Virus record (IMG/VR): IMGVR_UViG_3300019776_000554
Location: 1 to 23,368 of that record
Length of the DNA stretch: 23,368 bases
Direction: 5' to 3' (one strand)
From: a virus
In this document: positions 1 to 23,345 of the stretch, one piece after another
Numbering within the stretch: the stretch's first letter is position 1
Layout: the number at the start of each line of letters is the position of its first letter
The notes under the pieces: model-generated
Seen by the model: the letters and a program-made list of their open reading frames with translations, nothing else
The model's database searches: none
Told to the model about the DNA's origin: nothing
Program-made: the position numbers and the translations under genes

Positions 1-419
1 GGCTCATTGCGTTCGATATAACGCCAATGGATCGTATGGATGGGAGCTTTAATCTCGATGATTCCTTGGCGATCATGAATAAAGCCATCAATCGAGCAGC
101 CAAATTTCTCGCCCTCATGGTAGGCAAAGCCAATTTGCTCGACTAAATTGCCTGTTTGCATTTCATATAAGGCCCGGGCTTCGGGTTCAAGAGCAGTACC
201 TCTGGCCATGTGTTCATTGACCTTGGTGTAATCGCCTGATTTGCCTGTAATGCGCTCTAAAGCCAATTGATAGATGTACGAGCTGCGGGTTTTTGATTCA
301 GTTCCCTTAGTGCGGCCCTTCGCCAGAATGCAATCGGCCTTTGATCCCGTTGCTTTTCCTAAGCGATCAGCTAACCATTCGGGAGTGCCTTGCTCGGCAG
401 CGCAAATAATTAAGCTCAT
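1..419 (-). CDS. YqaJ/lambda-Exo-like viral recombinase exonuclease (3' end outside window)
   Basis: The first 139 residues are present; the C-terminus lies beyond the left edge. The frame opens with MSLIICAAEQGTPEWLADR, the G-T/S-x-E-W-x-x-x-R start typical of YqaJ-type alkaline exonucleases. It continues with GTALEPEA (acidic residue E78) and a PD-(D/E)XK core: D111 in SIDGF and E122-x-K124 in IIEIKAP. The family degrades one strand of duplex DNA 5'-3' and hands the resulting single strand to an annealing protein. The ATG (417-419) overlaps the stop of the ERF annealing protein gene by 4 bases (ATGA), so the two are translationally coupled and form a two-component recombination system like lambda Exo/Beta or P22 Erf. 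The motifs are seen directly; the role is family knowledge. Confidence 0.88.
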   Translation of the reverse strand, partial: MSLIICAAEQGTPEWLADRLGKATGSKADCILAKGRTKGTESKTRSSYIYQLALERITGKSGDYTKVNEHMARGTALEPEARALYEMQTGNLVEQIGFAYHEGEKFGCSIDGFIHDRQGIIEIKAPIHTIHWRYIERNE

Positions 420-1054
420 TGCGCCTCCTTAGCTAATTCAATTTCAATATCAATTGCCTCTTTCTCAAGTGCCATCTTTTCCTCTTCTCGTTTTTTCATC
501 GTTTCGTTATCGACCTGATAGCAAGCAGCAATCAAAGCCTCCTTATTAGCGTTCCACACTTTGTCTTTAACTGTTGATTTAGGAATTTGCTGCCAAGTTT
601 CATCAAAGGTTTTTTTGCCAAGGAGGGAGGCATCTCGGAGCTTTTGCAAGATGTCTTTTTCGATGTCGGCGGGAGAAGGTTCTCCATCCAAATCCTCTTG
701 AGCCACACCAAGCCCGGCCAGAGAATAGCGTCTTAAGTAGGTCACATCGCTACCCAGTCCTTGGGCAAGGCCGTCTTTGCTGGTCTTACACGAGATCTTC
801 CAAGAAATGTATTCGCCTGATTCATGCATGAGGATAGTTTCGACCTCGGTGCGATCAGCCTCTATTGAAGGGCATTGCAAAACCGATAGGCCATATTTGG
901 CGAGTACCGGGCGAATGGTGGCTAAGATCTCAGCTAAATCCGCATACCAATTTTTATAGTGCGGATTAAACGCATTTTTATTGGGATTTTGGAATTCTCC
1001 TTGCGCCTTGGCAAGGGCGGAGGCCAGATCTTTAATCGATTGAGAGGAGTTCAT
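416..1054 (-). CDS. ERF-family single-strand DNA annealing protein
   Basis: A 212-aa protein with the ERF signature. It has NPHYKNWYADL at residues 30-40, followed by a helix containing IRPVLAKYGLSV, and SDVTYLRRYSLAGLG at 102-116 followed by EDLDGE at 120-125. The C-terminal third is charged and helical (KKREEEKMALEKEA). ERF proteins form rings, anneal complementary single strands and drive phage recombination or genome circularisation. The gene is followed with a 4-base overlap by the exonuclease gene and preceded 9 bases upstream by a small membrane-protein gene, all read leftwards from the PL-like promoter near 1462-1490. The start at 1054 has only a weak purine-rich leader. Family assignment is confident. 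Confidence 0.9.
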   Translation of the reverse strand: MNSSQSIKDLASALAKAQGEFQNPNKNAFNPHYKNWYADLAEILATIRPVLAKYGLSVLQCPSIEADRTEVETILMHESGEYISWKISCKTSKDGLAQGLGSDVTYLRRYSLAGLGVAQEDLDGEPSPADIEKDILQKLRDASLLGKKTFDETWQQIPKSTVKDKVWNANKEALIAACYQVDNETMKKREEEKMALEKEAIDIEIELAKEAQ

Positions 1055-1063
1055 TATTTTCTT

Positions 1064-1315
1064 TTAGTTTTTGGTGAGAAGGGTGATGAAGTTGGTAAAA
1101 ATCGGAGAGGCGATCAGATAGATCAGAAAGACACCAATACCCAAAATGCATAGGCAGCCGAATAGGTCTTTGATTAATCGCCAAGTGCGCTGGGCATCAG
1201 ATTCGCAACGCCACAGGCCAGTTGCGTAGTTCGCATCTTTGAAGGCTTCGCTAGCGGAGGAATAGGTGCGCCCCATCCCAAAGTGAGGTTGATTGCTCCA
1301 ATGTGATTCGCTCAT
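1064..1315 (-). CDS. Small single-span membrane protein of the leftward operon
   Basis: An 83-aa protein of unrecognised family. The N-terminal half is polar and aromatic (MSESHWSNQPHFGMGRTY, then a short helix SEAFKDANYATGLWRCESD). The C-terminal half holds one strong hydrophobic segment at about residues 50-70 (LFGCLCILGIGVFLIYLIAS), so it probably sits in the inner membrane. I chose the ATG at 1313-1315 because GGAGAG lies 6-7 bases upstream. A longer reading from 1360 would start inside the neighbouring ORF and has no such site. It is in the place where lambdoid phages carry small accessory early-left genes; exclusion or host-modulation roles are possible but nothing in the sequence shows one. 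Confidence 0.6.
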   Translation of the reverse strand: MSESHWSNQPHFGMGRTYSSASEAFKDANYATGLWRCESDAQRTWRLIKDLFGCLCILGIGVFLIYLIASPIFTNFITLLTKN

Positions 1316-1398
1316 GCTCTCTCCGCTTGCCCTAAAGGGTGGAGAGAAAAGACTTGCCAAGAGCTATCGGTGCATATACCTCGTCTTGTTACCATCAT
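1312..1398 (-). CDS. Possible 28-aa first ORF of the leftward operon
   Basis: A 28-aa frame (MMVTRRGICTDSSWQVFSLH, ending QAERA) begins 4 bases after a good Shine-Dalgarno GGAGAG (minus strand, 1403-1408). It ends with TGA sharing an ATGA overlap with the start of the 83-aa membrane protein gene, which argues for a genuine coupled cistron or leader peptide. It would be the first frame translated from the PL-like promoter. No family is recognised. The case rests on the ribosome site and the overlap only, since the frame is too short for composition to help. Confidence 0.45.
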   Translation of the reverse strand: MMVTRRGICTDSSWQVFSLHPLGQAERA

Positions 1399-1461: not shown

Positions 1462-1490
1462 AACTTACCAACTGAAAATTGGTTTGTGAA
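1462..1490 (-). promoter_or_regulatory. Candidate PL promoter for the leftward early operon
   Basis: Read on the minus strand: -35 TTCACA (1490-1485, 5 of 6 to consensus), a 17-base spacer, then TAAGTT (1467-1462) preceded by TGG, giving an extended -10. The -10 itself is only 3 of 6. One palindromic operator fills the spacer, so a bound repressor would block polymerase. The right-hand module has exactly the same arrangement. Predicted start is near 1455, about 57 bases before the first ORF. Confidence 0.5.
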
Positions 1491-1515
1491 AATTTAATTC
1501 CAATTTGAAATTGGT
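1467..1515 (-). promoter_or_regulatory. Left operator module (OL-like): two palindromic sites 32 bp apart
   Basis: Two 15-bp dyads centred at 1475 and 1507 lie between the repressor gene and the leftward operon. The one at 1500-1514 is a perfect palindrome, CCAATTTGAAATTGG. The other, 1468-1482, is degenerate in one arm. Read leftwards, the 49 bases match the module at 2133-2181 at 43 of 49 positions, including 25 consecutive identical bases in the middle. Centre spacing is 32 bp in both modules, about three helical turns, so dimers on the two sites would sit on the same DNA face. Binding by the adjacent repressor is inferred. Confidence 0.75.
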
Positions 1516-1944
1516 TTACTTCTTTCCAAACTTATCCAGCAGTACGGATCGAAGTTGAGCAAAGATAGTATTAAGCTCAATATTCTTTTTATATAACACG
1601 CAGTTATCGCATAAAAAAGTAGGTGAGAGTTGCCTTTGCGCCATTGATTCGGCGCAATCAAAGATCTGATTGAAATCTACTCCAAGCCAGCGAAACAAAA
1701 CAAGCTGATGCATCAACTCTGGAAAGCGTAAGCCTCGCATCCATTGGCGCACAGTCTCACGAGAGACTTGATCAGGAAAGGCGCAACGCAAATTAAATTG
1801 ATTGGCCAGATATGCTGCCGAGATGGTTTGGCCGGGAAAACGGGACTCGATTGCTTTCTCAAACGAGTCAGAAAACTTTTTGAGTAGATCATTTCGAGTC
1901 GTAACTGGCTGGTGTAAACCCGGGGATTGAATTGGTCTTAGCAT
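1516..1944 (-). CDS. Putative phage repressor (CI-position), HTH protein without peptidase domain
   Basis: A 142-aa protein. Residues 40-90 form a compact helical DNA-binding region: SAAYLANQFNLR, then VSRETVRQWMRGLRFPEL, where the VSRETVRQWMRG stretch reads as a recognition helix. LFRWLGVDFNQIF follows. The rightward gene at 2246-2680 has the same block order, so the two are paralogues. The C-terminus is short, with a C-x-x-C pair (C112, C115) and a terminal helix (ELNTIFAQLRSVLLDKF) that could mediate dimerisation. There is no LexA/CI-type Ser-Lys peptidase domain. Position between two copies of one operator module is the lambda cI position. Translation starts at ATG 1942-1944 with no Shine-Dalgarno. 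The repressor role is inferred from context and the HTH. Confidence 0.68.
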   Translation of the reverse strand: MLRPIQSPGLHQPVTTRNDLLKKFSDSFEKAIESRFPGQTISAAYLANQFNLRCAFPDQVSRETVRQWMRGLRFPELMHQLVLFRWLGVDFNQIFDCAESMAQRQLSPTFLCDNCVLYKKNIELNTIFAQLRSVLLDKFGKK

Positions 1945-1985
1945 GATTTTTATTATTCATTTAGTTAGTTATAACCCTTAGAAAA

Positions 1986-2014
1986 GTTATAAAAACCCCC
2001 TTTAAAGGCACAAA
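1986..2014 (-). promoter_or_regulatory. Weak candidate promoter for the repressor gene
   Basis: On the minus strand TATAAC (1991-1986) matches a -10 box at 5 of 6. TTTGTG (2014-2009) lies 17 bases upstream but is a poor -35; TTGTGC with a 16-base spacer is the alternative. GTTATAA occurs twice on the plus strand (1968-1974 and 1986-1992), so a second, closer -10 is possible. The predicted leader would be about 35 bases or shorter without a ribosome site. This is a guess based on position and one good hexamer. Confidence 0.3.
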
Positions 2015-2048
2015 TTAATGAATTCTATCTATTGCTGAAAACCAAATT

Positions 2049-2062
2049 TTGATAAATATCAA
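2049..2062. promoter_or_regulatory. 14-bp inverted repeat between repressor gene and OR
   Basis: TTGATAAATATCAA is a perfect dyad (TTGATA/TATCAA, 2-base centre) in the divergent regulatory gap. It is unlike the CCAATTT-n-AAATTGG operators, so if it is a site it would be for a different protein, or an extra site for the Cro-position protein. In AT-rich DNA a 14-bp dyad can also arise by chance. Confidence 0.3.
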
Positions 2063-2132
2063 TTTTTTGTCGGGTTCTTAAAAAAATCAATAACTTAAGT
2101 AGTTTGATGGCGTTTTTAACGCTTTATTTCAT

Positions 2133-2181
2133 GCCAATTTTAAATTGCAATTAAATTTTCACAAACCAATTTTAAATTGGC
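2133..2181 (+). promoter_or_regulatory. Right operator module (OR-like): two palindromic sites 32 bp apart
   Basis: The dyad at 2166-2180, CCAATTTTAAATTGG, is perfect. The one at 2134-2148, CCAATTTTAAATTGC, has one mismatch. Centres are 32 bp apart. The whole module is an inverted copy of the one at 1467-1515, on the other side of the repressor gene, and both read outward in the direction of early transcription. Repressor binding to both, perhaps with looping over the roughly 620 bp between them, is inferred by analogy with lambda OL/OR. Confidence 0.75.
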
Positions 2182-2186
2182 AAGAT
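2158..2186 (+). promoter_or_regulatory. Candidate PR promoter for the rightward early operon
   Basis: TTCACA (2158-2163; 5 of 6 to the -35 consensus), a 17-base spacer holding the perfect operator palindrome, then CAAGAT (2181-2186) preceded by TGG, an extended -10 form. The -10 hexamer is weak. Predicted start is near 2193, about 50 bases before the Cro-position gene. Confidence 0.5.
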
Positions 2187-2245
2187 TTTGAAATTCGGAC
2201 TTTACCATTTTCTTAATTTATGAAAAACAGAAAATGGAATTGGTG

Positions 2246-2680
2246 ATGACTAAAAAAGCCACCCCAGTAGAGCGTTCAAAACTAAACGAATCGTTTGCAG
2301 AAATTTTGCAATACGCATTGATCAAGAAATACAAATCCATTCCGGCGGCAGCCTTCATTGCCAAGGAATTTAATAATCACACAAACCACGCCTACAACAT
2401 GACCTCCGAAGGCGTTCGTCTGTGGTTACAAGGCAAAACCATTCCAGAGTTTGAGCGATTGGTAATGCTCAAAGATTGGCTGGGAATTGATCTCAATGGT
2501 TTTGGTAAATGCCCGGATAGTGAGGCTGTGGCCGAAACCGCTGCCAGTTTGCAGCCGGGAGGGCTAATCCCATCCGATCCCCATTTTGATCGGATTAAGC
2601 AACGCCATATTTACGACTTTCAAGAACTTCAGAACTTATTACACGAGACAGTAGATAACTACATTCGCAGATTGCGTTAA
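2246..2680 (+). CDS. Cro-position HTH regulator, paralogue of the divergent repressor
   Basis: A 144-aa protein with the repressor's block pattern: PAAAFIAKEF (residues 33-42), then TSEGVRLWLQGKTIPEFERL (53-72) and LKDWLGIDLNGF (75-86). These align with AAYLANQF, SRETVRQWMRGLRFPEL and FRWLGVDFNQI of the divergent gene. The C-terminal half differs: a Gly/Pro-rich linker, then a basic helical end (YDFQELQNLLHETVDNYIRRLR). I prefer ATG 2246, with GGA 7 bases upstream, over ATG 2234, which lacks a ribosome site. As first gene after the PR-like promoter it is in the lambda cro place and may repress both operator modules or activate early genes. Only the relationship to the repressor is visible. 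Confidence 0.65.
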   Translation: MTKKATPVERSKLNESFAEILQYALIKKYKSIPAAAFIAKEFNNHTNHAYNMTSEGVRLWLQGKTIPEFERLVMLKDWLGIDLNGFGKCPDSEAVAETAASLQPGGLIPSDPHFDRIKQRHIYDFQELQNLLHETVDNYIRRLR

Positions 2681-2683
2681 GCA

Positions 2684-3412
2684 ATGCACTATTACCAGTT
2701 CAATATCAAGAGCTATAACTCGGCTACGAATCACTTATCCAATGGTGAGGATTTAGCCTTTCGGCGGCTGCTCGATTTTTACTACGGCAACGAAACTCCA
2801 ATATCTGCAAAGCCAAATAAACCCACCGCTTTGGCAAAACTATCCCACCGCTTACGCTTGGATATTAACGACCTCGAATTTGTGCTTGATGAGTTCTTTA
2901 TTTTCGATGAAGAGTGCTGGAAACATGATTATTGCGATCAAGTGATTGCAGATTTTCAAGCCTTTCTTGAGAAGCAAAGAGCCAATGGCCGTAAGGGCGG
3001 CAGAGGAAATAAGAAAAATGATCAAGCCAATGTAAACCCAAATAAACCCACCGCTTTGCCAAATAAAGCCAAGCCCAAGCCAACAATAAACAATAAACAA
3101 GAAACCATAAACAATAAAAAACCTATTACGCCTATCGGCGTTAGTGAAGAAGTCTTTCAAGATTTTTTAAAACTGCGTGGATCAAAAGCACCCGTCACAG
3201 AAACCGCTATACGAGGTTTAGAGCGTGAATCAAAAAAAGCGGGGCTAACCCTTCAAGAGGTACTCGAACTCTGCTGTAAGAACGGATGGAGAGGTTTTGA
3301 GGCCGCATGGATTAACAAGAACAAAACTGCCGGAGAAAAAAAGCAAGAAGTGCTATCTGGCTTAACTCGTGGATTACTCGGGGGTGGCAATGCCAACATA
3401 CTCACAAGCTGA
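2684..3412 (+). CDS. DUF1376-family phage replication protein (lambda O-like position)
   Basis: A 242-aa protein starting MHYYQFNIKSYNSATNHLS, the DUF1376 (YdaU) N-terminal signature. It continues with EDLAFRRLLDFYYGNE at about residues 23-38 and a winged-helix-like region to about residue 90. A low-complexity basic linker follows (about 95-150, rich in N, K, P), then a C-terminal helical domain (SEEVFQDFLKLRG, WRGFEAAWINK). Such proteins sit where lambda O sits and are thought to start phage replication. It begins 3 bases after the Cro-like gene and overlaps the P-like gene by 23 bases. The linker DNA is a candidate origin. The initiator role is inferred from family position. Confidence 0.8.
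   Translation: MHYYQFNIKSYNSATNHLSNGEDLAFRRLLDFYYGNETPISAKPNKPTALAKLSHRLRLDINDLEFVLDEFFIFDEECWKHDYCDQVIADFQAFLEKQRANGRKGGRGNKKNDQANVNPNKPTALPNKAKPKPTINNKQETINNKKPITPIGVSEEVFQDFLKLRGSKAPVTETAIRGLERESKKAGLTLQEVLELCCKNGWRGFEAAWINKNKTAGEKKQEVLSGLTRGLLGGGNANILTS
3028..3120 (+). other. Candidate replication origin inside the DUF1376 gene
   Basis: The linker-coding DNA contains ATAAACAA three times (3086-3093, 3093-3100, 3107-3114), all phased by multiples of 7 bp, in a strand-asymmetric A-rich stretch. The second copy of an exact 21-bp direct repeat starting CCAAATAAACCC lies at 3038-3058; the first is at 2813-2833. Lambda places its iterons and AT-rich unwinding element in the equivalent linker of O. 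The caveat is that DUF1376 linkers are often Asn/Lys/Gln-rich anyway, which makes A-rich repeats without any origin function. Confidence 0.3.
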
Positions 3413-4000: not shown

Positions 4001-4409
4001 ATGCATACATTCCAATTGATCCATATAAGTCACTCTAAATGTAGAGGGTTTGTGGAAAACCATACACAACCCTACATTGTTCGAAATTAGAGAGCATCGC
4101 CAAATGCAAAACTTAGCCCAACAACGCAAATACCACGCCATGATTAATGAGGTGGCAGAACAAGCCAAGCATCTAGGCAGCCAATGGGAGTCCGATGATT
4201 GGAAACGCTTGCTCTTGGATAAATTTGCTCGGGATACCGGGAGATCGCATGGCAAGGTTATTGCCAACTTAGATCTCAATGGAGTTGTACAAGTTGGCTT
4301 GCAGTCCCGTAAGTTCAATAAGCCCGATGCTGCTGAATTTATTGAGTGGCTCATGGCTTGGGGGATTGAGAATGGGATTTCTTGGCCAGCATATGAGTAT
4401 GAGGGCTAA
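4001..4409 (+). CDS. ninB: NinB-family recombination protein, apparent +1 frameshift near 4084-4086
   Basis: Two frames together make one NinB-like protein of about 135 aa. The first, from ATG 4001, reads MHTFQLIHISHSKCRGFVEN...PYIVR and hits TAG at 4088. The second continues from about 4086 as IREHRQMQNLAQQRKYHAMI and runs to 4409, with DDWKRLLLDKF and the conserved ending FIEWLMAWGIENGISWP. Leaving out one A of AAA (4084-4086) joins them as PYIVR-IREHR, the expected NinB strand leading into the N-x-x-x-A-Q-x-R helix. NinB binds single-stranded DNA and acts with ORF/Rap-type recombination functions in lambda. If the base is real, the gene is broken or depends on recoding. The second frame alone could start at TTG 4050 or ATG 4104 but would lack the first strand. 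Confidence 0.75.
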
Positions 4410-4892
4410 TTGAAAACAGTTCATATGAATCGTCAGGAGATTGCAATTGCAAATCTCATTGGTAATTTGCGTAATTGCGTTGCTCGCAGCCTCAATGTGG
4501 GTGATAAAAAAATGGGTAAGCAAGATCCTTTAGAAATTGATGTCGATGGAATGCTTGCTGAGATGGCTTTTTGCAAAGCATGGAATATCTACCCAGATTA
4601 CACAATCAATCCTCGTCAGGGCGGCGTTGATGCAATAACTAAGAATGGAACAAAAGTTGATATTAAATCGACTAGAAACCCAAATGGTCGTTTATTAATT
4701 CATAAAAATAAAAAAGTAGGAGAAGTTGATAGATATGTACTGGCCATTATTGACGGGGATAAGGTCTATTTAGTTGGATTCATAGATGAAAAATCTGCTC
4801 TCGACTCTAAATATTTAAATGATTTAGGGCATGGAGAAGGATTCGTTATTCCACGAGCGGCATTAATTCCCTTTGAATCTTCCAATGACTAA
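4410..4892 (+). CDS. Phage protein with PD-(D/E)XK nuclease-like core
   Basis: A 160-aa protein. TTG 4410 follows GAGGG by 4 bases and abuts the NinB stop; ATG 4425 (MNRQEIAIAN) is the alternative. Features: DVDGMLAEMAFCKAWNIYPDY (conserved acidic helix at about residues 44-65), then GGVDAITKNGTKVDIKSTR, a D-x(9)-D-x-K arrangement like the active site of PD-(D/E)XK nucleases, then a strand YVLAIIDGDKVYLVGFI. I have a general memory of similar hypothetical proteins in phage replication/recombination operons but no functional assignment. Nuclease or structure-specific DNA-binding activity is an inference from the motif and the NinB/NinG neighbours. Confidence 0.65.
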   Translation: MKTVHMNRQEIAIANLIGNLRNCVARSLNVGDKKMGKQDPLEIDVDGMLAEMAFCKAWNIYPDYTINPRQGGVDAITKNGTKVDIKSTRNPNGRLLIHKNKKVGEVDRYVLAIIDGDKVYLVGFIDEKSALDSKYLNDLGHGEGFVIPRAALIPFESSND

Positions 4893-5439
4893 ATGCGCCA
4901 TCTGCAAAGCCGTCTATATCAAATGGTCAATGAGCCAAAAGGTGTGCGGCAAGGTCGAATGCGCTAAAGCCTATGCAAGAAAAGTCATTCTAAGGATTGA
5001 GCAGAAAGCTAGAAAAGCCGAGGCAAAAGCAATATTTCAAAGAAAAATGGAGCTTAAGCCAAGATCTTATTGGATCAGAACGGCTAAACGCTATTTCCAT
5101 CGCTATATCCGCATGAGGGATAAAGATCAGCCATGTATTAGTTGCGGAACAACCCTGCAACCCAATAAATTCGGGGGTAGCGTAGATGCTGGCCACTTTA
5201 GGTCTGTGGGATCAGCCAAGCATTTAGAGTTTGATTCCTACAATGTCCACGCTCAATGCAAGCGATGTAATCGAGATCTCTCTGGCAATCACTCCGAGTA
5301 TCGCAAGGGCCTAATTGAGCGCATAGGCATGGGTAATGTGGAATGGCTTGAGGCAAATCAAGACACTCGGAAATTGTCAATCACCGAACTGAAAGAAATT
5401 ATTTCTATTTATAAAACTAAATGGGAGGAGTTGCAATGA
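4885..5439 (+). CDS. ninG: NinG/Rap-family recombination endonuclease
   Basis: A 184-aa protein that resembles lambda NinG throughout. There is an N-terminal Cys cluster (CAICKAVYIKWSMSQKVC, then VECAKAY), a long Lys/Ala-rich helix, LKPRSYWIRTAKRYFHRYIR, CISCGTTLQPNKFGG, DAGHFRSVGS and the HNH-like end VHAQCKRCNRDLSGNHSEYR. NinG (Rap, recombination adept with plasmid) is a structure-specific nuclease that targets D-loops and Holliday junctions. I chose ATG 4885 (MTKCAICK) because lambda NinG also begins just before its Cys cluster; it overlaps the previous gene by 8 bases. No key residue seems missing. Confidence 0.92.
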   Translation: MTKCAICKAVYIKWSMSQKVCGKVECAKAYARKVILRIEQKARKAEAKAIFQRKMELKPRSYWIRTAKRYFHRYIRMRDKDQPCISCGTTLQPNKFGGSVDAGHFRSVGSAKHLEFDSYNVHAQCKRCNRDLSGNHSEYRKGLIERIGMGNVEWLEANQDTRKLSITELKEIISIYKTKWEELQ

Positions 5440-8263: not shown

Positions 8264-9502
8264 TTGATCGAAGTTCAAAAAAAATATGAGCAATGGGACA
8301 TAAATAAACTAGTTCCGTACGCTCGTAACGCAAGAACGCATTCTGATGAGCAAATCGCTCAACTGGCCGCCTCTATCAAAGAGTGGGGATGGACCACTCC
8401 GGTATTGGTTGATCCAGACGGGGGAATTATTGCTGGTCATGGCAGAGTAATGGCGGCAAGAAAACTAGACATTCAGCAAATCCCAGTATTAATTGCCGAT
8501 GGATGGTCGGACTCTCAAAAAAGAGCCTACATTCTTGCCGATAACAAGTTGGCAATGAACGCTGGTTGGGATGTGGAGTTATTGGCCCTTGAGTTAAGCG
8601 ATCTCAAAGAGTTCGACTTTGATTTAAACCTCATAGGTTTTGGCGATCAAGAGATTGCCGATTTATTGCAAAACGGAATCGATGGGTTAACTGATCCTGA
8701 TGAAGTTCCAGAGTTGCAAGAAATCAACATAAATGTACCGGGTGACCTCTGGCAACTAGGACCTCATAAATTATTGTGCGGGGATTCAACTATCCTGACT
8801 GATGTTGAAAAGTTGATGGGTGAGGTCAAGGCCGATATGTGCTTTACCGACCCTCCCTACAATGTGGACTACGGCAATAGCGCAAAAGACAAAATGCGGG
8901 GAAATGATCGCCGCATTATGAATGATGCTTTGGGTGAAAATTTTTATCAGTTTTTATTAGATGCCTGTAGCAATATCCTCTCTGTAACTAAGGGCGCTTG
9001 CTATATCTGCATGAGTTCCTCCGAACTTCATAACCTGCAAAGAGCATGGATAGAGGCTGGTGGCAAATGGTCAACTTTCATAATTTGGTCAAAAAACACA
9101 TTCACATTGGGCCGATCTGATTATCAGCGACAGTACGAGCCAATCTTATATGGCTGGCGGGAAGGAACGGATCATTTTTGGTGTGGCGATAGAAGCCAAA
9201 GTGATGTCTGGAATTACAACAAACCGCATAAAAACGATCTGCATCCGACCATGAAACCCGTTGAACTAGTGGAGCGGGGCATTCGCAATTCAAGCAAAAC
9301 TCAAGACATTGTGTTTGAGCCTTTTGGCGGCGGCGGATCAACTCTCATCGCCTGTGAAAAATCAGGAAGAGTGGCTAGGGTCATTGAGTTAGATCCGAAG
9401 TATTGTGATGTGATTATCCGTAGATGGCAATCGTTTACAGGGCAAAAGGCCACCCTTATTTCGGATGGCAGAACATTTGAAGAGGTTGAAAATGGTCGGT
9501 AG
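8264..9502 (+). CDS. ParB-domain DNA methyltransferase (beta-class N6-adenine/N4-cytosine type)
   Basis: A 412-aa protein from TTG 8264, supported by AAAGGAG five bases upstream. Residues 1-140 are a ParB/Srx-like domain (LVPYARNARTHSDEQIAQL, then GIIAGHGRVMAARKL and ADNKLA). The rest is an amino-methyltransferase with motif IV DPPY at 196-199 and the SAM-binding motif VFEPFGGGGSTLIACE at 350-365. The order IV before I is the beta class. DPPY is usual for adenine-N6 enzymes. No restriction gene is adjacent, so it is an orphan phage enzyme that may protect phage DNA or mark it for packaging. It overlaps the terminase small subunit gene by 11 bases. Confidence 0.93.
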   Translation: MIEVQKKYEQWDINKLVPYARNARTHSDEQIAQLAASIKEWGWTTPVLVDPDGGIIAGHGRVMAARKLDIQQIPVLIADGWSDSQKRAYILADNKLAMNAGWDVELLALELSDLKEFDFDLNLIGFGDQEIADLLQNGIDGLTDPDEVPELQEININVPGDLWQLGPHKLLCGDSTILTDVEKLMGEVKADMCFTDPPYNVDYGNSAKDKMRGNDRRIMNDALGENFYQFLLDACSNILSVTKGACYICMSSSELHNLQRAWIEAGGKWSTFIIWSKNTFTLGRSDYQRQYEPILYGWREGTDHFWCGDRSQSDVWNYNKPHKNDLHPTMKPVELVERGIRNSSKTQDIVFEPFGGGGSTLIACEKSGRVARVIELDPKYCDVIIRRWQSFTGQKATLISDGRTFEEVENGR

Positions 9503-16769: not shown

Positions 16770-19700
16770 GTGTCCATCACTTTCCAAACCCCGGGGGCAG
16801 TAGCTTACTCGTCCCCGCAAAACGCAACTTCAATTTCGGTAGCGTATCCCGCATCGAATGCAGTAGGGGAGAAGCTCATTCTTATTTTGGGAATGAAACC
16901 CACAGTTGCCAACGGCGGATCGGTATCTACGCCCGGATCTTGGAATTTAGTAACAAGCCTTACTGGGGCAGGAGGTTATGGCTCAACGCTCGGTGCTGAT
17001 ACAGGCAATACTAATCTTTTTGTCTATGAGCGCACAGTTCCGGCGGGTGGATTAAGTGGCAATTTAAGTATTACTTTATCTGGCAGCAATATAAGCTGGG
17101 CTTTTATGGCCCGCTTAACCAATACTTCTTTGTACTCATGGGATAGCATTGCAGCGGCAACGGGTAGTCAAACGGCTGCGGGTAATGTCAATATTACTTT
17201 TGGCTCAAACCCGGGGGTCACGGCTAATGATTACATCATTGGCGCAATGTGCATACCAACTGATATTGGCGGCGGCACAAATTTCTCCGCTGAGGCTTTC
17301 TCGCAAACGAGCGTCACCTTTGGCACAGTAACTGAAATTAATGAGCCACAATCTGGAACGGGTAATGATATTGGCGGATTTTCGTGTCGATCATTAGTTA
17401 GTAGCGGAACGGGGTCAGCTAACCCAGTAATGACGGCAACTTTTGGCACGACTAATACCAATATTCGAGGCCCAGCCGTATTCGTTCGGATTCGTGAGAA
17501 ATTAACCACTAATAATTTAACGGGCAATAACTGTAATCAACCCAATACAACCACTACTGGCGCATGGTCTGGCCCAGTAACTTTAACAGGCAATAACTGC
17601 AATCAATCTAATAAAACCACAATGGGTGGCATTGGACTGACAGGTAATCGCTATTGGGTGGGTGGTACAGGAACTTGGGACGGAACGGATACCTCGCATT
17701 GGTCAGATATTTCGGGGGGCGCATCGGGCGCATCCGTACCAACATCGACCAATGATGTCTTTTTTGATAGCAACTCTAATACCGGAACTTCGGCTTTTAC
17801 TGTCTCAGTTTTAACAACGGCAGGAAACTGTCGGGATTTAAAAATTTGCACACTAGATGGTGCGATGACGCTATATCCCGACAAAGAAATTAATATTTAC
17901 GGGAATCTTGCTTGTCCAACTACCAACTTTAGTCTGCAATACAATTTTGTAAATATTAATCTTGTCAAAGCATCGGGTTCAGCGACTATTGATTTGCATG
18001 GTGGGTCTAATCTTGCGAATTTGCGATTAAGTGTTAATGGTGACGCAACATTTACCTTAATTAACCATCTTGATGTTGGTACATCTTTAAATTTAATAAA
18101 AGGCACTCTTGATTTTGCTAATTACGATGTCAGAATTGGCGGATTTGGTTCAACTGGAAATGATGTTAGAACTTTATATTTACGCAACAGTAATATATAT
18201 TCGGGAAATGTGAATGTAAGCGGCAATAATTTCACTTTAGATTGTGGCAATTCCACTTGGCATCAAATTTCAAGCACTTTTGGTTGGTCAGGCTCTTATC
18301 GTTTTTGGATATTGGATTGTGCCGCTGACTTTAGCAATATTTGGGTATCAGGCACACATACTTTTCACGATTTAACTCGCACCTCTGCAATCAATGGCGT
18401 AGGATTTTTATTTGATAACGGCGCAACATTTGAGGCGCTCACAATCAGCGGGACATCTGGCAATTTAGTTAGATTAGGTACAAATAATGGCACGAATCAA
18501 TGGACTTGTACTGTTACATCAGGTGTTGTTGATCTTGATTATTTAAATCTAAGTTACAGCACCGCTACTGGTGGTGCGGTGTTTTATGCTGGCTCACATT
18601 CCACTAATGGCGGTAATAATATTAATTGGAATTTTGCTGATCCAGTTTATGTTACTTTAACTGGCAATAGCGTAAATCAGCCCAATACAAGCACAACGGG
18701 CGCTATTGAAGCCTTTGAAGCTCGTTACTGGGTAGGCGGTGCTGGAACTTGGGATGCCAGCTCGACAACGCATTGGTCAGCATCATCGGGCGGTGGAGGC
18801 GGAGCATCCGTTCCCAATTCAGCAACGAATGTTTTTTTTAATGGCTCATCTGATACGGGAACGGGCTTTACTGTCACCTTGTCAGGAACGATTGCTTGTC
18901 GTAATTGGACTGTCGAAAATCACGATGTCACCATAACTTTTGATGGCAGCCCAACCTTATCGGTATATAAAGATATTCGCTGGATTCCAGTTAGCACCAA
19001 CATTTCAGCAAGTGGTCTAAGTGGTACTTGTAAATTGGTTGGGGGCGCTGGCGCATCTCAAAGCATTTTATTTAACAACATCACAGTTGGTCTTAATTTA
19101 CGCTTTGATGGCACAAGCACAACGACCTATAACTTTGCAAGTGACTTTACGGGTAACTCCAATTCGGTATTCACTTTAATCAATGGTATTTTAAATACCG
19201 CCAATTACACCCTTAGCGTGGATCATTGGACTACCTCAGCTGGTACATCCACTACCAATCTGGGTTCTTCTTTAATTATTATCTCTGGTTGGCAAGGTTT
19301 AAATTATGTAGCGGGTAGCACAATTAATGCTGGCACTTCAACTGTGCGCTTTACAACTACTGCTGGTGTTACTGGCAACATTACCTTACCTAATTACACT
19401 TTAAATAATATTGAATTCCCCAGCACAAGCAAAAACGATTTTATTATTAACCAAGACGGCGGTAATTTAAATTGTAATAATTTGTCCATAACTAACGCCA
19501 CAAACGGGCGTAAATATTTCATCCTAGGAAGCTCAACCTCAGTAAGTGGTTTTGTCAATCTGACCATTGCTGGCACATTCACAGTTACTGGCAGTAGTCA
19601 TAAAAATTGTTCAGTCTTTATACCTAATTTTTTCCTTTACACATCGCCCACGACAATTAGTGCAAATGCCGTTAGCCTTAGTTATGTTAACTTTTTGGGT

Positions 19701-22700
19701 ATTGCCGCCACAGGATCAGCAGCTCCGTTTTCGGGAACTTCAATTGGTAATATTGGGTTTAATTCAGGAATTACCTTTACCACCCCTAAAACGACCTACT
19801 TTAGAGGTGCGGCTGGCACGACTGTTTGGGATGGCAGCAATGTCTTTAGTGCCACTAGTGGTGGGGCGGGGGCAGAGGCAAATTATCCTTTGCCACAAGA
19901 TACAGTTATCGTTGATGAAAATACGCTATCAAGTACGATCAGCTCGACAAGTAGCAATATTCGGATAGAGTTTTCTACCTTTGATGCCAGCACTCGCACG
20001 ACTGCTTTAACTTTTTCACGAAATTCAGCAATTTTTGTTGGAGGCCAAGCGGGTGCAATTAAAACTCCCGCTGCAATCACATGGACTGCAACTGGAGATG
20101 GAATTTATATCCATTCTGATTGCGATTTAGATATTGTCAATGCGTTAAATACTCCCATTACTATGCGGGTACGCAAACAAGGCACACCATCAAGCGGCAC
20201 AGTTAAATTACTTCGCAACTTAACGCATAACAGTCAATATGGATTGACCAATATTGGCGGCACACTCGATTTAAACGGATTTACTTTAAAGGTGTGGAAT
20301 TACACATCTGGCACTATTGCTACAACCGCTAGTAATCTGCGTGGGCTTTGGATTCATGGTGGCGCAATGCAAATTGAGTATTCCGCTACTTTTTCAATTC
20401 ATTTTGATTGCACTTATAACCTTGGCCATACTTTTGTAGATGGTGAGTATGTTGATTTGGTAGGTAGTCATCCCGCAGATACCATAAGAGTTAATGGTGG
20501 TAGTAGTGCAGGGTTAGATAATGCTCCGAGCATTCGACTCAATGGTGCTTATAGCGCATATTACACATCCACTACTTATTACAACAGTATTGATGCCACC
20601 AATGGTAGTGGTAGCTTAACAATTGGCAACTCGAAAGAATATTACGGCGATATTACTCTTGGTTCAAGTGTGACCATGACTGCGGACGGAACAGGTTTTA
20701 CTTTCATTGGCAGTAAAAATAGTGCAATTAATTCCAATGGTGTTAGTTTTAAATGTCCCATTACGATTAATAAATCGGTGGGATACGATGTCACGCTATC
20801 GAGCAATGTCACTATTACAGATGGATATAATTTATATTTGACCCAAGGCAATATTAGCCTTAGTAGCTACACCTTCCAAGTCAATCGCTTTTCTGTTACA
20901 GGAACATCCAGCCGTACTATTAAATTTGATACTGGCACGATTGCCGTTTCGGAAAATGGAACTCCTTGGGCAAACAGCAATGCAACTAATTTAAGTATTA
21001 CTGGGCAAAGCACCGGAAAAATTAAATTACTTAGCACTACTGGGTCATCTAATTTTCAAGGTCAAGGATTATCGTATCCCAATTTAGAACTGGCGGGTGC
21101 GGGTGATATTGCAGTTACGGGCGCAAATACTTTTTATAATTTGACCAATTCGGTTCAGCCCGCCTCGATTACGCTACCAGCATCGACAACCACTACCTTT
21201 GAATCATTTAGCCTTCGGGGTACGGCGGGCAATTTAGTCGTAGTTAAATCAAGCAGCTCAACATTAAAAGCCACGCTCTATAAAGCGTCTGGCGATGTGG
21301 ATTGTAATTATCTCAATATTAATGACAATGCGGCAACAGGGATTTCGGCATGGTATGCGGGCGCAAATAGTACGGATGGCCTTGATAACACCGGATGGAT
21401 TTTTGCGAACAAGCCTGTAGCAAAAAATCTCACCGGAAATAATTGCAATCAACCCAATACCACGACAACGGGTGCGATTACTCGAGTTCTGACGCTCACC
21501 GGAAATAATTGCAATCAACCCAACACCACTACATCGGGTGCAATCTCTCAAACGCATAAATTAACTGGGGCAAGCTGCAATCAACGCAATACCACCACAA
21601 CCGGGGCAATTAATCGCACACTCACGCTCACCGGAAATAATTGCAATCAACCCAACACCACTACAACGGGAGCGATTAGCCGAGTCTTAACGCTGACTGG
21701 GAACAACTGTAAACAACCAAATTCCACTACAAGCGCAGCAATCAATCGAACTCTCACGCTAACTGGTAATAATGTCAATCAGCCGAACACAACCACGACA
21801 GGGCGGATCGCTCGGGTTCAAACGATTACTGGGAATAATTGCAACCAACCAAATACGACCACGACTGGTGCGATTACTCGAGTTTTAACCTTAACTGGGA
21901 ATAATTGTAATCAGGCCAATAGAACAACTACAGGGCAAGTAACTAAAGAGCAAATGCTGACTGGCAACAATGTTCAGCAAGTCAATAAATCTACCAATGC
22001 CAGTATTACGCAAACCCATAAGATTTATGGCAATAATGTTCAGCAAAGCAACCGATCAAGTTCGAGCGCAATTAGTCAAACCCATAAACTGACTGGGAAT
22101 AGTTGTCAGCAAGCCAATCAGAGTACCAGCGGGGCTATTAATAGAACTCTGACCCTTACTGGCAATAGTGTTCAGCAAGCTAACAAATCAACCTCGGCGG
22201 GGATTAGTCAAACCCATATTCTCTCGGGTGCAAACTGCCACCAATCCAATCGTTCGAGTAATGGTCAAGTCTCATTATTTGAGGATTTGATTGGCAATAA
22301 TGTCACGCAACACAATTACTCAACCTCAGCCAGTATTAGCCAGACCCATAAGATATATGGCAATAATGTTAACCAGCCCAATAGCTCTGCAACGGGAGCG
22401 ATTTATAAAACCCTGACGCTCACCGGGAACAATGTTCAGCAAAGTAATCGGTCAAGCTCGGCAGCAATTAGTCAGACCCATAAATTAGTCGGGGCGAACT
22501 GTCAGCAAAGTAATCGATCAACTAGCGGCGCAGTTATTCAGACTCAAACCCTAGTTGGTAACTCTGTTTATCAAAGCAATTTGTGCGAGCAAGGGGCAAT
22601 TAGCCAAACGCATATTTTGGCTGGCAACAATGTTAATCAACCCAATAAATCGACTAGCGCATCAATTGGCGGCACGATCACTCTGACTGGGAATAATGTT

Positions 22701-23345
22701 AATCAGCCCAACACCACGACTACGGGCGCAATTAATCGGGTACTGACGCTGACTGGCAACAATGTCCGGCAAGCCAATCAATCGACAAACGGATCAATTG
22801 CCCAAGCCCACGATATTCATGGCAACAATGTACGCCAACTTAATCGAAGCACTTCAGGCGCAATAGATCAGGCGGGAAGTTTGACGGGCAACTCTGTTAC
22901 TCAGTCCAATCGTTCGACCTCGGCTGCAATTACGCAAACCCATAAACTGACTGGTGCAAATTGCGTACAAGCCAATCAATCGAGTACGGGTGAGATTGCG
23001 ATTGAATATGTCTTAAGTGGCAATAATGCTCAACAAGTTAATACCAGCACAACTGCCAACATCGAGCAAATTCATGTCTTACAGGGCTTTAATTGCAATC
23101 AGCTCAATAAATCCACTACTGGGATTGTCGTAGTTCAAGGTCGTTTACTCGGGGCAAATTGTATTCAAGCCAATAGCAGCACTTCGGATCGAATCTACGC
23201 TTATCCCGTTGAAAACGCTCCAGCCGGATCAGCCTTTAATCGCTATCGCTTTAATCCCAATCGCCCGGTATCTAGCAACATGAATCGCCCAGATTTTATT
23301 AATACTCAGAGGCCATCCAATACGAATGTGATTGGGCCACTCTAA
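16770..23345 (+). CDS. Giant modular repeat protein, probable virion fibre or adhesin (2191 aa)
   Basis: Domains in order. Residues 1-245 are a beta-rich N-terminal domain (MSITFQTPGAVAYSS, WNLVTSLTGAGGYG, FVYERTVPAGG), typical of phage fibre/tail-surface proteins. Two 22-residue repeat units lie at 250-293. Module 1 opens RYWVGGTGTWDG at 294. One more unit sits at 630-651, then module 2 opens RYWVGGAGTWDA at 652 and a divergent module 3 opens YFRGAAGTTVWDG near 1011. Modules 1 and 3 end in similar motifs (YAGSHSTNGGNNINWNF, YAGANSTDGLDNTGWIF). Residues 1554-2147 are exactly 27 tandem 22-mers. The tail ends in NRPDFINTQRPSNTNVIGPL. No signal peptide or enzyme motif is seen. The start is GTG 16770. 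A surface fibre is inferred from composition and position. Confidence 0.85.
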   Translation: MSITFQTPGAVAYSSPQNATSISVAYPASNAVGEKLILILGMKPTVANGGSVSTPGSWNLVTSLTGAGGYGSTLGADTGNTNLFVYERTVPAGGLSGNLSITLSGSNISWAFMARLTNTSLYSWDSIAAATGSQTAAGNVNITFGSNPGVTANDYIIGAMCIPTDIGGGTNFSAEAFSQTSVTFGTVTEINEPQSGTGNDIGGFSCRSLVSSGTGSANPVMTATFGTTNTNIRGPAVFVRIREKLTTNNLTGNNCNQPNTTTTGAWSGPVTLTGNNCNQSNKTTMGGIGLTGNRYWVGGTGTWDGTDTSHWSDISGGASGASVPTSTNDVFFDSNSNTGTSAFTVSVLTTAGNCRDLKICTLDGAMTLYPDKEINIYGNLACPTTNFSLQYNFVNINLVKASGSATIDLHGGSNLANLRLSVNGDATFTLINHLDVGTSLNLIKGTLDFANYDVRIGGFGSTGNDVRTLYLRNSNIYSGNVNVSGNNFTLDCGNSTWHQISSTFGWSGSYRFWILDCAADFSNIWVSGTHTFHDLTRTSAINGVGFLFDNGATFEALTISGTSGNLVRLGTNNGTNQWTCTVTSGVVDLDYLNLSYSTATGGAVFYAGSHSTNGGNNINWNFADPVYVTLTGNSVNQPNTSTTGAIEAFEARYWVGGAGTWDASSTTHWSASSGGGGGASVPNSATNVFFNGSSDTGTGFTVTLSGTIACRNWTVENHDVTITFDGSPTLSVYKDIRWIPVSTNISASGLSGTCKLVGGAGASQSILFNNITVGLNLRFDGTSTTTYNFASDFTGNSNSVFTLINGILNTANYTLSVDHWTTSAGTSTTNLGSSLIIISGWQGLNYVAGSTINAGTSTVRFTTTAGVTGNITLPNYTLNNIEFPSTSKNDFIINQDGGNLNCNNLSITNATNGRKYFILGSSTSVSGFVNLTIAGTFTVTGSSHKNCSVFIPNFFLYTSPTTISANAVSLSYVNFLGIAATGSAAPFSGTSIGNIGFNSGITFTTPKTTYFRGAAGTTVWDGSNVFSATSGGAGAEANYPLPQDTVIVDENTLSSTISSTSSNIRIEFSTFDASTRTTALTFSRNSAIFVGGQAGAIKTPAAITWTATGDGIYIHSDCDLDIVNALNTPITMRVRKQGTPSSGTVKLLRNLTHNSQYGLTNIGGTLDLNGFTLKVWNYTSGTIATTASNLRGLWIHGGAMQIEYSATFSIHFDCTYNLGHTFVDGEYVDLVGSHPADTIRVNGGSSAGLDNAPSIRLNGAYSAYYTSTTYYNSIDATNGSGSLTIGNSKEYYGDITLGSSVTMTADGTGFTFIGSKNSAINSNGVSFKCPITINKSVGYDVTLSSNVTITDGYNLYLTQGNISLSSYTFQVNRFSVTGTSSRTIKFDTGTIAVSENGTPWANSNATNLSITGQSTGKIKLLSTTGSSNFQGQGLSYPNLELAGAGDIAVTGANTFYNLTNSVQPASITLPASTTTTFESFSLRGTAGNLVVVKSSSSTLKATLYKASGDVDCNYLNINDNAATGISAWYAGANSTDGLDNTGWIFANKPVAKNLTGNNCNQPNTTTTGAITRVLTLTGNNCNQPNTTTSGAISQTHKLTGASCNQRNTTTTGAINRTLTLTGNNCNQPNTTTTGAISRVLTLTGNNCKQPNSTTSAAINRTLTLTGNNVNQPNTTTTGRIARVQTITGNNCNQPNTTTTGAITRVLTLTGNNCNQANRTTTGQVTKEQMLTGNNVQQVNKSTNASITQTHKIYGNNVQQSNRSSSSAISQTHKLTGNSCQQANQSTSGAINRTLTLTGNSVQQANKSTSAGISQTHILSGANCHQSNRSSNGQVSLFEDLIGNNVTQHNYSTSASISQTHKIYGNNVNQPNSSATGAIYKTLTLTGNNVQQSNRSSSAAISQTHKLVGANCQQSNRSTSGAVIQTQTLVGNSVYQSNLCEQGAISQTHILAGNNVNQPNKSTSASIGGTITLTGNNVNQPNTTTTGAINRVLTLTGNNVRQANQSTNGSIAQAHDIHGNNVRQLNRSTSGAIDQAGSLTGNSVTQSNRSTSAAITQTHKLTGANCVQANQSSTGEIAIEYVLSGNNAQQVNTSTTANIEQIHVLQGFNCNQLNKSTTGIVVVQGRLLGANCIQANSSTSDRIYAYPVENAPAGSAFNRYRFNPNRPVSSNMNRPDFINTQRPSNTNVIGPL
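17517..17648 (+). repeat. Two 66-bp (22-aa) repeat units before module 1
   Basis: Two units, LTGNNCNQPNTTTTGAW... and LTGNNCNQSNKTTMGGI..., match the C-terminal array consensus although they lie nearly 3.8 kb away. They separate the N-terminal domain from the first YWVGG module. Confidence 0.85.
17649..21428 (+). repeat. Three long YWVGG-type protein modules
   Basis: Modules start at codons 294 (17649), 652 (18723) and about 1011 (19800), so the first two are each about 358 residues. The third runs on to 1553. Each opens with Y-W/F-V/R-G-G/A-x-G-T-x-W-D, then an S-G-G-Gly-rich-P segment and a T-N-D/N-V-F-F-type strand, with Asn/Thr-rich beta-solenoid-like sequence behind. They are diverged at DNA level, so this is an old duplication. 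Confidence 0.75.
18657..18722 (+). repeat. Single 66-bp (22-aa) repeat unit between modules 1 and 2
   Basis: LTGNSVNQPNTSTTGAI plus five residues matches the array consensus and sits exactly between the end of module 1 and the RYWVGG opening of module 2. Confidence 0.85.
21429..23210 (+). repeat. Array of 27 tandem 66-bp (22-aa) repeats
   Basis: Twenty-seven uninterrupted units without a single insertion or deletion. Consensus by position: L-T-G-N-N-[CV]-x-Q-x-N-x-[ST]-[ST]-[ST]-[GA]-x-I-x-[QR]-[TV]-[HL]-x. Gly3, Gln8 and Asn10 are kept in every unit. Units 1, 2 and 4 (21429, 21495, 21627) share their first 29 bases exactly, which suggests recent duplication or gene conversion. The fixed length and polar ladder fit a beta-solenoid with one coil per unit. 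Confidence 0.95.

Follow-up and report, generated by a model that had tools for sequence, protein, structure and literature searches.

The stretch of DNA analysed here, referred to below as the window, comprises positions 1-23,368 (23,368 nt) of the viral contig IMGVR_UViG_3300019776_000554, a phage whose hosts are probably freshwater Polynucleobacter-type bacteria. Comparisons are drawn with a sister phage (contig IMGVR_UViG_3300020048_000292, G001), which was reached via its terminase large subunit, TerL, 91% identical to that of the window. The window phage is temperate-looking; the sister encodes an integrase (L217:93-1154, PF00589, E 4e-23) and a possible excisionase, and the window contig ends short of the region where the sister has its integrase. 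The window locus of interest centres on the gene for a 142-aa repressor candidate, around which the order of functions is that of lambda, and includes the following genes:

1-419, minus strand: YqaJ-type exonuclease of the left operon (PF09588, E 2e-17), cut by the window end
416-1054, minus strand: ERF single-strand annealing protein of the left operon (PF04404, E 9e-19)
1064-1315, minus strand: small protein, the first larger gene of the left operon, starting at ATG 1315; 54% in the sister
1312-1398, minus strand: 28-codon leader ORF in the PL leader, its stop overlapping the next start (ATGA)
1516-1944, minus strand: CI-position repressor candidate, 142 aa, with a predicted lambda-repressor-like helix-turn-helix (HTH) fold and no S24 domain
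2234-2680, plus strand: Cro-position regulator, 148 aa (144 aa from ATG 2246), a paralog of the 142-aa protein
2684-3412, plus strand: DUF1376/primosomal O-like replication protein of the right operon
4873-5439, plus strand: NinG/Rap recombination endonuclease of the right operon (PF05766, E 2e-49)

Terminase, portal and other structural genes follow rightward beyond NinG. Just ahead of the terminase, at 8264-9502, a ParB-N domain is fused to an N6/N4 DNA methyltransferase that is 49% identical in the sister, against 76-91% for its terminase and portal neighbours. A 2191-aa open frame occupies 16770-23345, and its second half contains numerous LTGNNCNQPNTTTTGAI-type repeats; its position suggests a tail/fibre-like or surface protein. 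Scans of the whole window for tRNA genes and Rfam families returned no matches.

The repressor candidate is flanked by two 49-bp modules in inverted orientation, at 1467-1515 (minus) and 2133-2181 (plus), to which the first-pass annotation had drawn attention, and their identity at 43 of 49 bases held on recounting. The inverted repeat around them extends over 75 nt at 80%, with 619 nt separating the arms, and its best 49-nt inverted match (44 bases) was reached in none of 1000 dinucleotide-preserving shuffles of the two intergenic stretches, where the maximum was 32. Each module holds two dyads, which constitute the predicted operators:

1468-1482, minus strand: left inner operator, CCAACTGAAAATTGG (minus reading CCAATTTTCAGTTGG), two mismatches to CCAATTTnAAATTGG, in the putative PL spacer
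1500-1514, minus strand: left outer operator, CCAATTTGAAATTGG (minus reading CCAATTTCAAATTGG), a perfect dyad with no mismatches
2134-2148, plus strand: right outer operator, CCAATTTTAAATTGC, one mismatch
2166-2180, plus strand: right inner operator, CCAATTTTAAATTGG, a perfect dyad with no mismatches, in the putative PR spacer

The two dyads lie 32 bp apart in both modules, as had been described, but the description of all four as palindromes was too generous, for only one per module is perfect. On the left it is the outer site and on the right the inner one, which makes the modules unequal; if affinity follows symmetry, the PR spacer would hold a strong site and the PL spacer a weak one. In the 23 kb, three dyads come within one mismatch of CCAATTTnAAATTGG, and all three lie inside the modules; shuffles yield 0.03. 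When each site was left out in turn, all four led the window, with at most two further positions scoring as well (in these counts, here and for the sister, the sites themselves and the same dyads read backwards are set aside). The stop codon of the repressor candidate lies two bases from the left outer dyad. A terminator-like hairpin is found at 2109-2123, just ahead of the right module, and a separate dyad, TTGATAAATATCAA, occupies 2049-2062 in the 190-bp untranslated stretch ahead of the repressor gene.

Three promoters can be proposed around the inner dyads, two facing outward and one facing the repressor gene:

1462-1490, minus strand: putative PL, TTCACA (1490-1485), 17 bp, TGG-extended TAAGTT (1467-1462), 8.9 bits
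2158-2186, plus strand: putative PR, TTCACA (2158-2163), 17 bp, TGG-extended CAAGAT (2181-2186), 8.2 bits
2155-2183, minus strand: candidate PRM toward the repressor gene, TTGCCA (2183-2178), 17 bp, TG-extended GAAAAT (2160-2155), 10.0 bits

Under the scoring matrix used, which consists of approximate E. coli frequencies taken from general knowledge, the putative PL and PR are the top of their region and direction, at scores that arise about 0.5-0.9 times per kb per strand. Of the earlier proposal that one dyad per module lies exactly between a TTCACA -35 and a TGG-extended -10, the geometry survives, the inner dyad filling the 17-bp spacer. The hexamers fare less well: each -10 matches the consensus at just three of six positions, and the -35/-10 elements are not kept in the sister, where the equivalent places score about 3 bits on the right and 0-2.5 bits on the left. 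Both phages do keep TGG(C/T)AAG at the edge of the inner dyad. In the inward direction, this motif supplies a TTGCCA -35 and thereby a candidate promoter for the repressor gene, whose sister equivalent, TTGCCA-16-AAAAAT, scores 7.9 bits under the same matrix.

A conserved leader begins 24 nt past the TGG of the left module in both phages, which fits a transcription start near that module. This PL leader takes lambda N's place (window 1455-1312, minus; sister L165:2250-2105, minus). It opens in both phages with a 17-nt block, TTACGAT..A.ACATCG, and contains an ORF of 26-28 codons that begins ATGGTAACAAG and whose stop overlaps the next start (ATGA/TTGA), together with a long GGAGAGA-TCTCTCC hairpin (z -1.8 and -2.4), the 3' arm of which could have the GGAGAG Shine-Dalgarno of the following gene as an alternative partner. 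It looks like an element of translational or antitermination control.

The two regulators, of 142 and 148 aa, are paralogous (29% over 86 aa, E 1e-12). Neither has a meaningful match in Pfam, PHROG, NCBIfam or PDB, and neither retrieved anything when searched directly against IMG/VR and INPHARED. An AlphaFold model of the 142-aa protein, built on a four-sequence alignment, places helices at 17-35, 43-53, 62-70 and 77-86 in blocks of pLDDT 77-92, with a C-terminal helix of low confidence. XRE-type proteins head its Foldseek matches, followed at lower rank by P22 c2 and lambda CI; all of them have E-values of at least 0.08, weak enough that the predicted HTH domain of the lambda-repressor-like general fold is supported rather than proven. 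No match to an S24 (LexA-like) peptidase/oligomerisation domain was obtained in the proteins of 142 and 152 aa that were scanned; RecA-stimulated cleavage of the lambda type is therefore not expected, and induction cannot run as in lambda.

Profile searches recovered the HTH family of the regulators in 31 of 186 genomes of a Polynucleobacter-centred genus search and in 174 of 399 genomes of a wider family search (Burkholderiaceae), where some members have the HTH followed by a PAS-like domain. A phage-internal duplication may be the origin of both regulators, an AU test giving neither proof nor rejection (p = 0.34). At L168, L170 and L171 (about 4400-5400), chromosomal relatives lie directly 3' of a gene for an alanine-rich coiled-coil-like protein, and the two genes form a conserved host gene pair in three genomes.

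The sister, the only such phage found, carries a matching divergent pair of paralogous regulators, and its own dyads sit where the window predicts them, immediately past the repressor stop and, on the other side, about 50 bp ahead of the Cro-position gene, with TGGCAAG at their ends as in the window:

L165:2259-2275, minus strand: equivalent of the left inner operator, GCCTCTCCGAAAGTGGC
L165:2291-2307, minus strand: equivalent of the left outer operator, GCCTCACTAAAATTGGC, 32 bp from the inner one
L165:2964-2980, plus strand: equivalent of the right outer operator, GCCTCTGCAAAATTGGC
L165:2995-3011, plus strand: equivalent of the right inner operator, GCCTCGCCAAAGGTGGC, 31 bp from the outer one

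These sites are half-symmetric only (four to five of eight pairs). When each is left out in turn, the remaining three single it out among 84,182 positions, no more than two others being as good. With its own matrix, each operator set reaches 20-24 bits; with that of the other phage, it falls to between -1 and 7. An exact search of IMG/VR for the paired dyads found none. Looking for the dyads in related phages, as the first-pass annotation had suggested, thus gave a divided answer: pairing, position and the 31-32 bp spacing are kept, while the dyad sequence differs at all four sites. The count of only two operators per side applies to both phages. Two further sister sites that were considered as extra operators, G001:32220 and 19758, were rejected, the first lying inside a coding end and the second being a terminator-like hairpin after a gene. 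The sister's intergenic region between the repressor and Cro-position genes also contains a 21-bp near-perfect dyad, CCATTTCCAATTTTGAAATGG (L165:2892-2912), which scores 14.5 bits under the window operator matrix, with about 0.01 expected in that stretch; it is perhaps a relic or a site of the other regulator.

Among the early proteins, the CI-like one has diverged most between the two phages (36% over 83 aa, its neighbours ranging over 39-91%), as would be expected if immunity specificity had changed. Four sites flanking a gene have changed together while retaining their position and spacing, and the window phage and its sister look like two immunity types of one switch. Nothing argues more strongly for binding of the dyads by a phage regulator than this co-change of operators under a fixed geometry, which provides strong, if indirect, evidence for genuine switch sites.

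On a rival reading, the dyads would serve mainly the 148-aa Cro-position protein, or a host regulator of the same family, with the 142-aa protein acting elsewhere, for example at the other dyads in its own 190-bp leader, of which the window has TTGATAAATATCAA (2049-2062) and the sister CCATTTCCAATTTTGAAATGG (2892-2912, the 14.5-bit match). Both phage proteins do belong to one family that is also present on Burkholderiaceae chromosomes, and CB and Cro of the telomere phage phiKO2 differ in the sites that they bind (PMC4997575). We nevertheless regard this assignment as unlikely, for the operators have diverged as far as the CI-like protein, while the Cro-like HTH is still 65% identical between the phages, and the left module, which adjoins the 142-aa gene, would have no evident role in a Cro-only circuit. 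Still less credible is a recent inverted duplication that left the second module functionless on one side: the window modules are indeed very similar (43/49), the 19 bp between the dyads included, but the sister too has dyad pairs on both sides, of other sequence and changed in concert, and both modules point at early operons. Hardly any weight attaches to RNA hairpins (terminators or attenuators) or replication iterons, since the window dyads, although self-complementary, give a weak hairpin (-3.5 kcal/mol) with no T run after it, one sister dyad folds with an energy no better than that of its shuffles, and the four sites form two inverted, outward-facing pairs around the repressor gene and no iteron array.

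We assign a probability of roughly 0.84 to the preferred reading, in which a lysis-lysogeny switch of lambda style has one of the inverted modules as its left operator/promoter region and the other as its right one. The left module faces the recombination operon (ERF, YqaJ) and the right one the lytic operon (148-aa regulator, replication protein, NinG). Of the OL/PL - cI - OR/PR logic with unrelated sites that the first-pass annotation had recognized, the OL - cI - OR layout is borne out by the flanked repressor-type gene, by the two early operons running outward from it and by the repetition of this geometry in the sister. From these comparisons, the modules can be regarded as a well-supported predicted operator system. 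In layout and inferred logic the system is lambda-like; by protein, its regulators are outside the lambda CI/Cro family. Neither this point nor the paralogy of the first lytic gene with the repressor had been noticed in the first-pass annotation.

In the proposed mechanism, the 142-aa HTH protein, probably as a dimer, would bind the four dyads of about 17 bp and repress both outward promoters through the inner dyads, with the outer dyads helping. Leftward shut-off would silence the recombination operon, and rightward shut-off the operon headed by the 148-aa paralog. The paralog would act as antagonist: it probably binds these sites, or a subset of them, with a preference of its own and turns off the repressor, and this antagonism would give rise to two stable states. 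A repressor loop would have to span 634 bp between the outer dyads or 698 bp between the inner ones. This is physically feasible but speculative, for the 142-aa protein lacks an oligomerisation/peptidase domain of the lambda CI type and its C-terminal part is modelled at low confidence.

A more specific version is put forward tentatively, at somewhat less than even odds: that the switch is built from two paralogous small host-type HTH regulators of a family not previously modelled in phage databases and without a RecA-cleavable domain, that it uses two operators per side and perhaps looping over 630-740 bp, and that the immunity of the sister differs through four operators replaced in step with the repressor. 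No account of a phage of this kind turned up in literature searches. A lambda-like switch would be present in a phage lineage of abundant freshwater Burkholderiales, where annotation by family models misses it, neither regulator being modelled. The phage pair offers a natural experiment in which a repressor and four operators shift specificity together with their spacing retained, and it raises the question of the route by which a prophage with a non-cleavable repressor is induced.

Among known systems, the Burkholderiaceae chromosomal regulators share the HTH family of the phage pair, but occur as single genes at the inspected loci and as same-strand tandem copies in the match lists, and no divergent pair with mirrored operators was seen among them. 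The S24-type CI repressor of the viral contigs L240 and L241 has an HTH domain that matches the family profile (E 1e-7); its C-terminal half reads, by eye, as an S24-type peptidase domain, which the window repressor lacks. The immB region of phiKO2/N15 likewise follows a lambda-like order, its prophage repressor gene having operators to either side, two of them on the left, where OL adjoins repA; it differs in having three OR operators, against two on the right in the window phage, and encodes a 37-kDa CB repressor and an 8-kDa Cro that binds OR3 only (PMC4997575).

A close parallel in layout is lambda itself, which also has its repressor gene between inverted operator/promoter regions, a recombination operon on the left and Cro-position and replication genes on the right, an operator within the promoter spacer (of putative promoters in the window) and an HTH repressor of the general fold predicted here. 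Lambda has three operators per side and about 2.3 kb between its operator regions (PMC5880393), whereas the window phage and its sister have two per side and about 620 bp lie between the window modules. The operator sequence of the window is unrelated to that of lambda and rex genes are absent; the 142-aa repressor belongs to another family than CI, without the S24 peptidase/oligomerisation domain, and the Cro-position protein is, unlike that of lambda, a clear paralog of the repressor that it would oppose.
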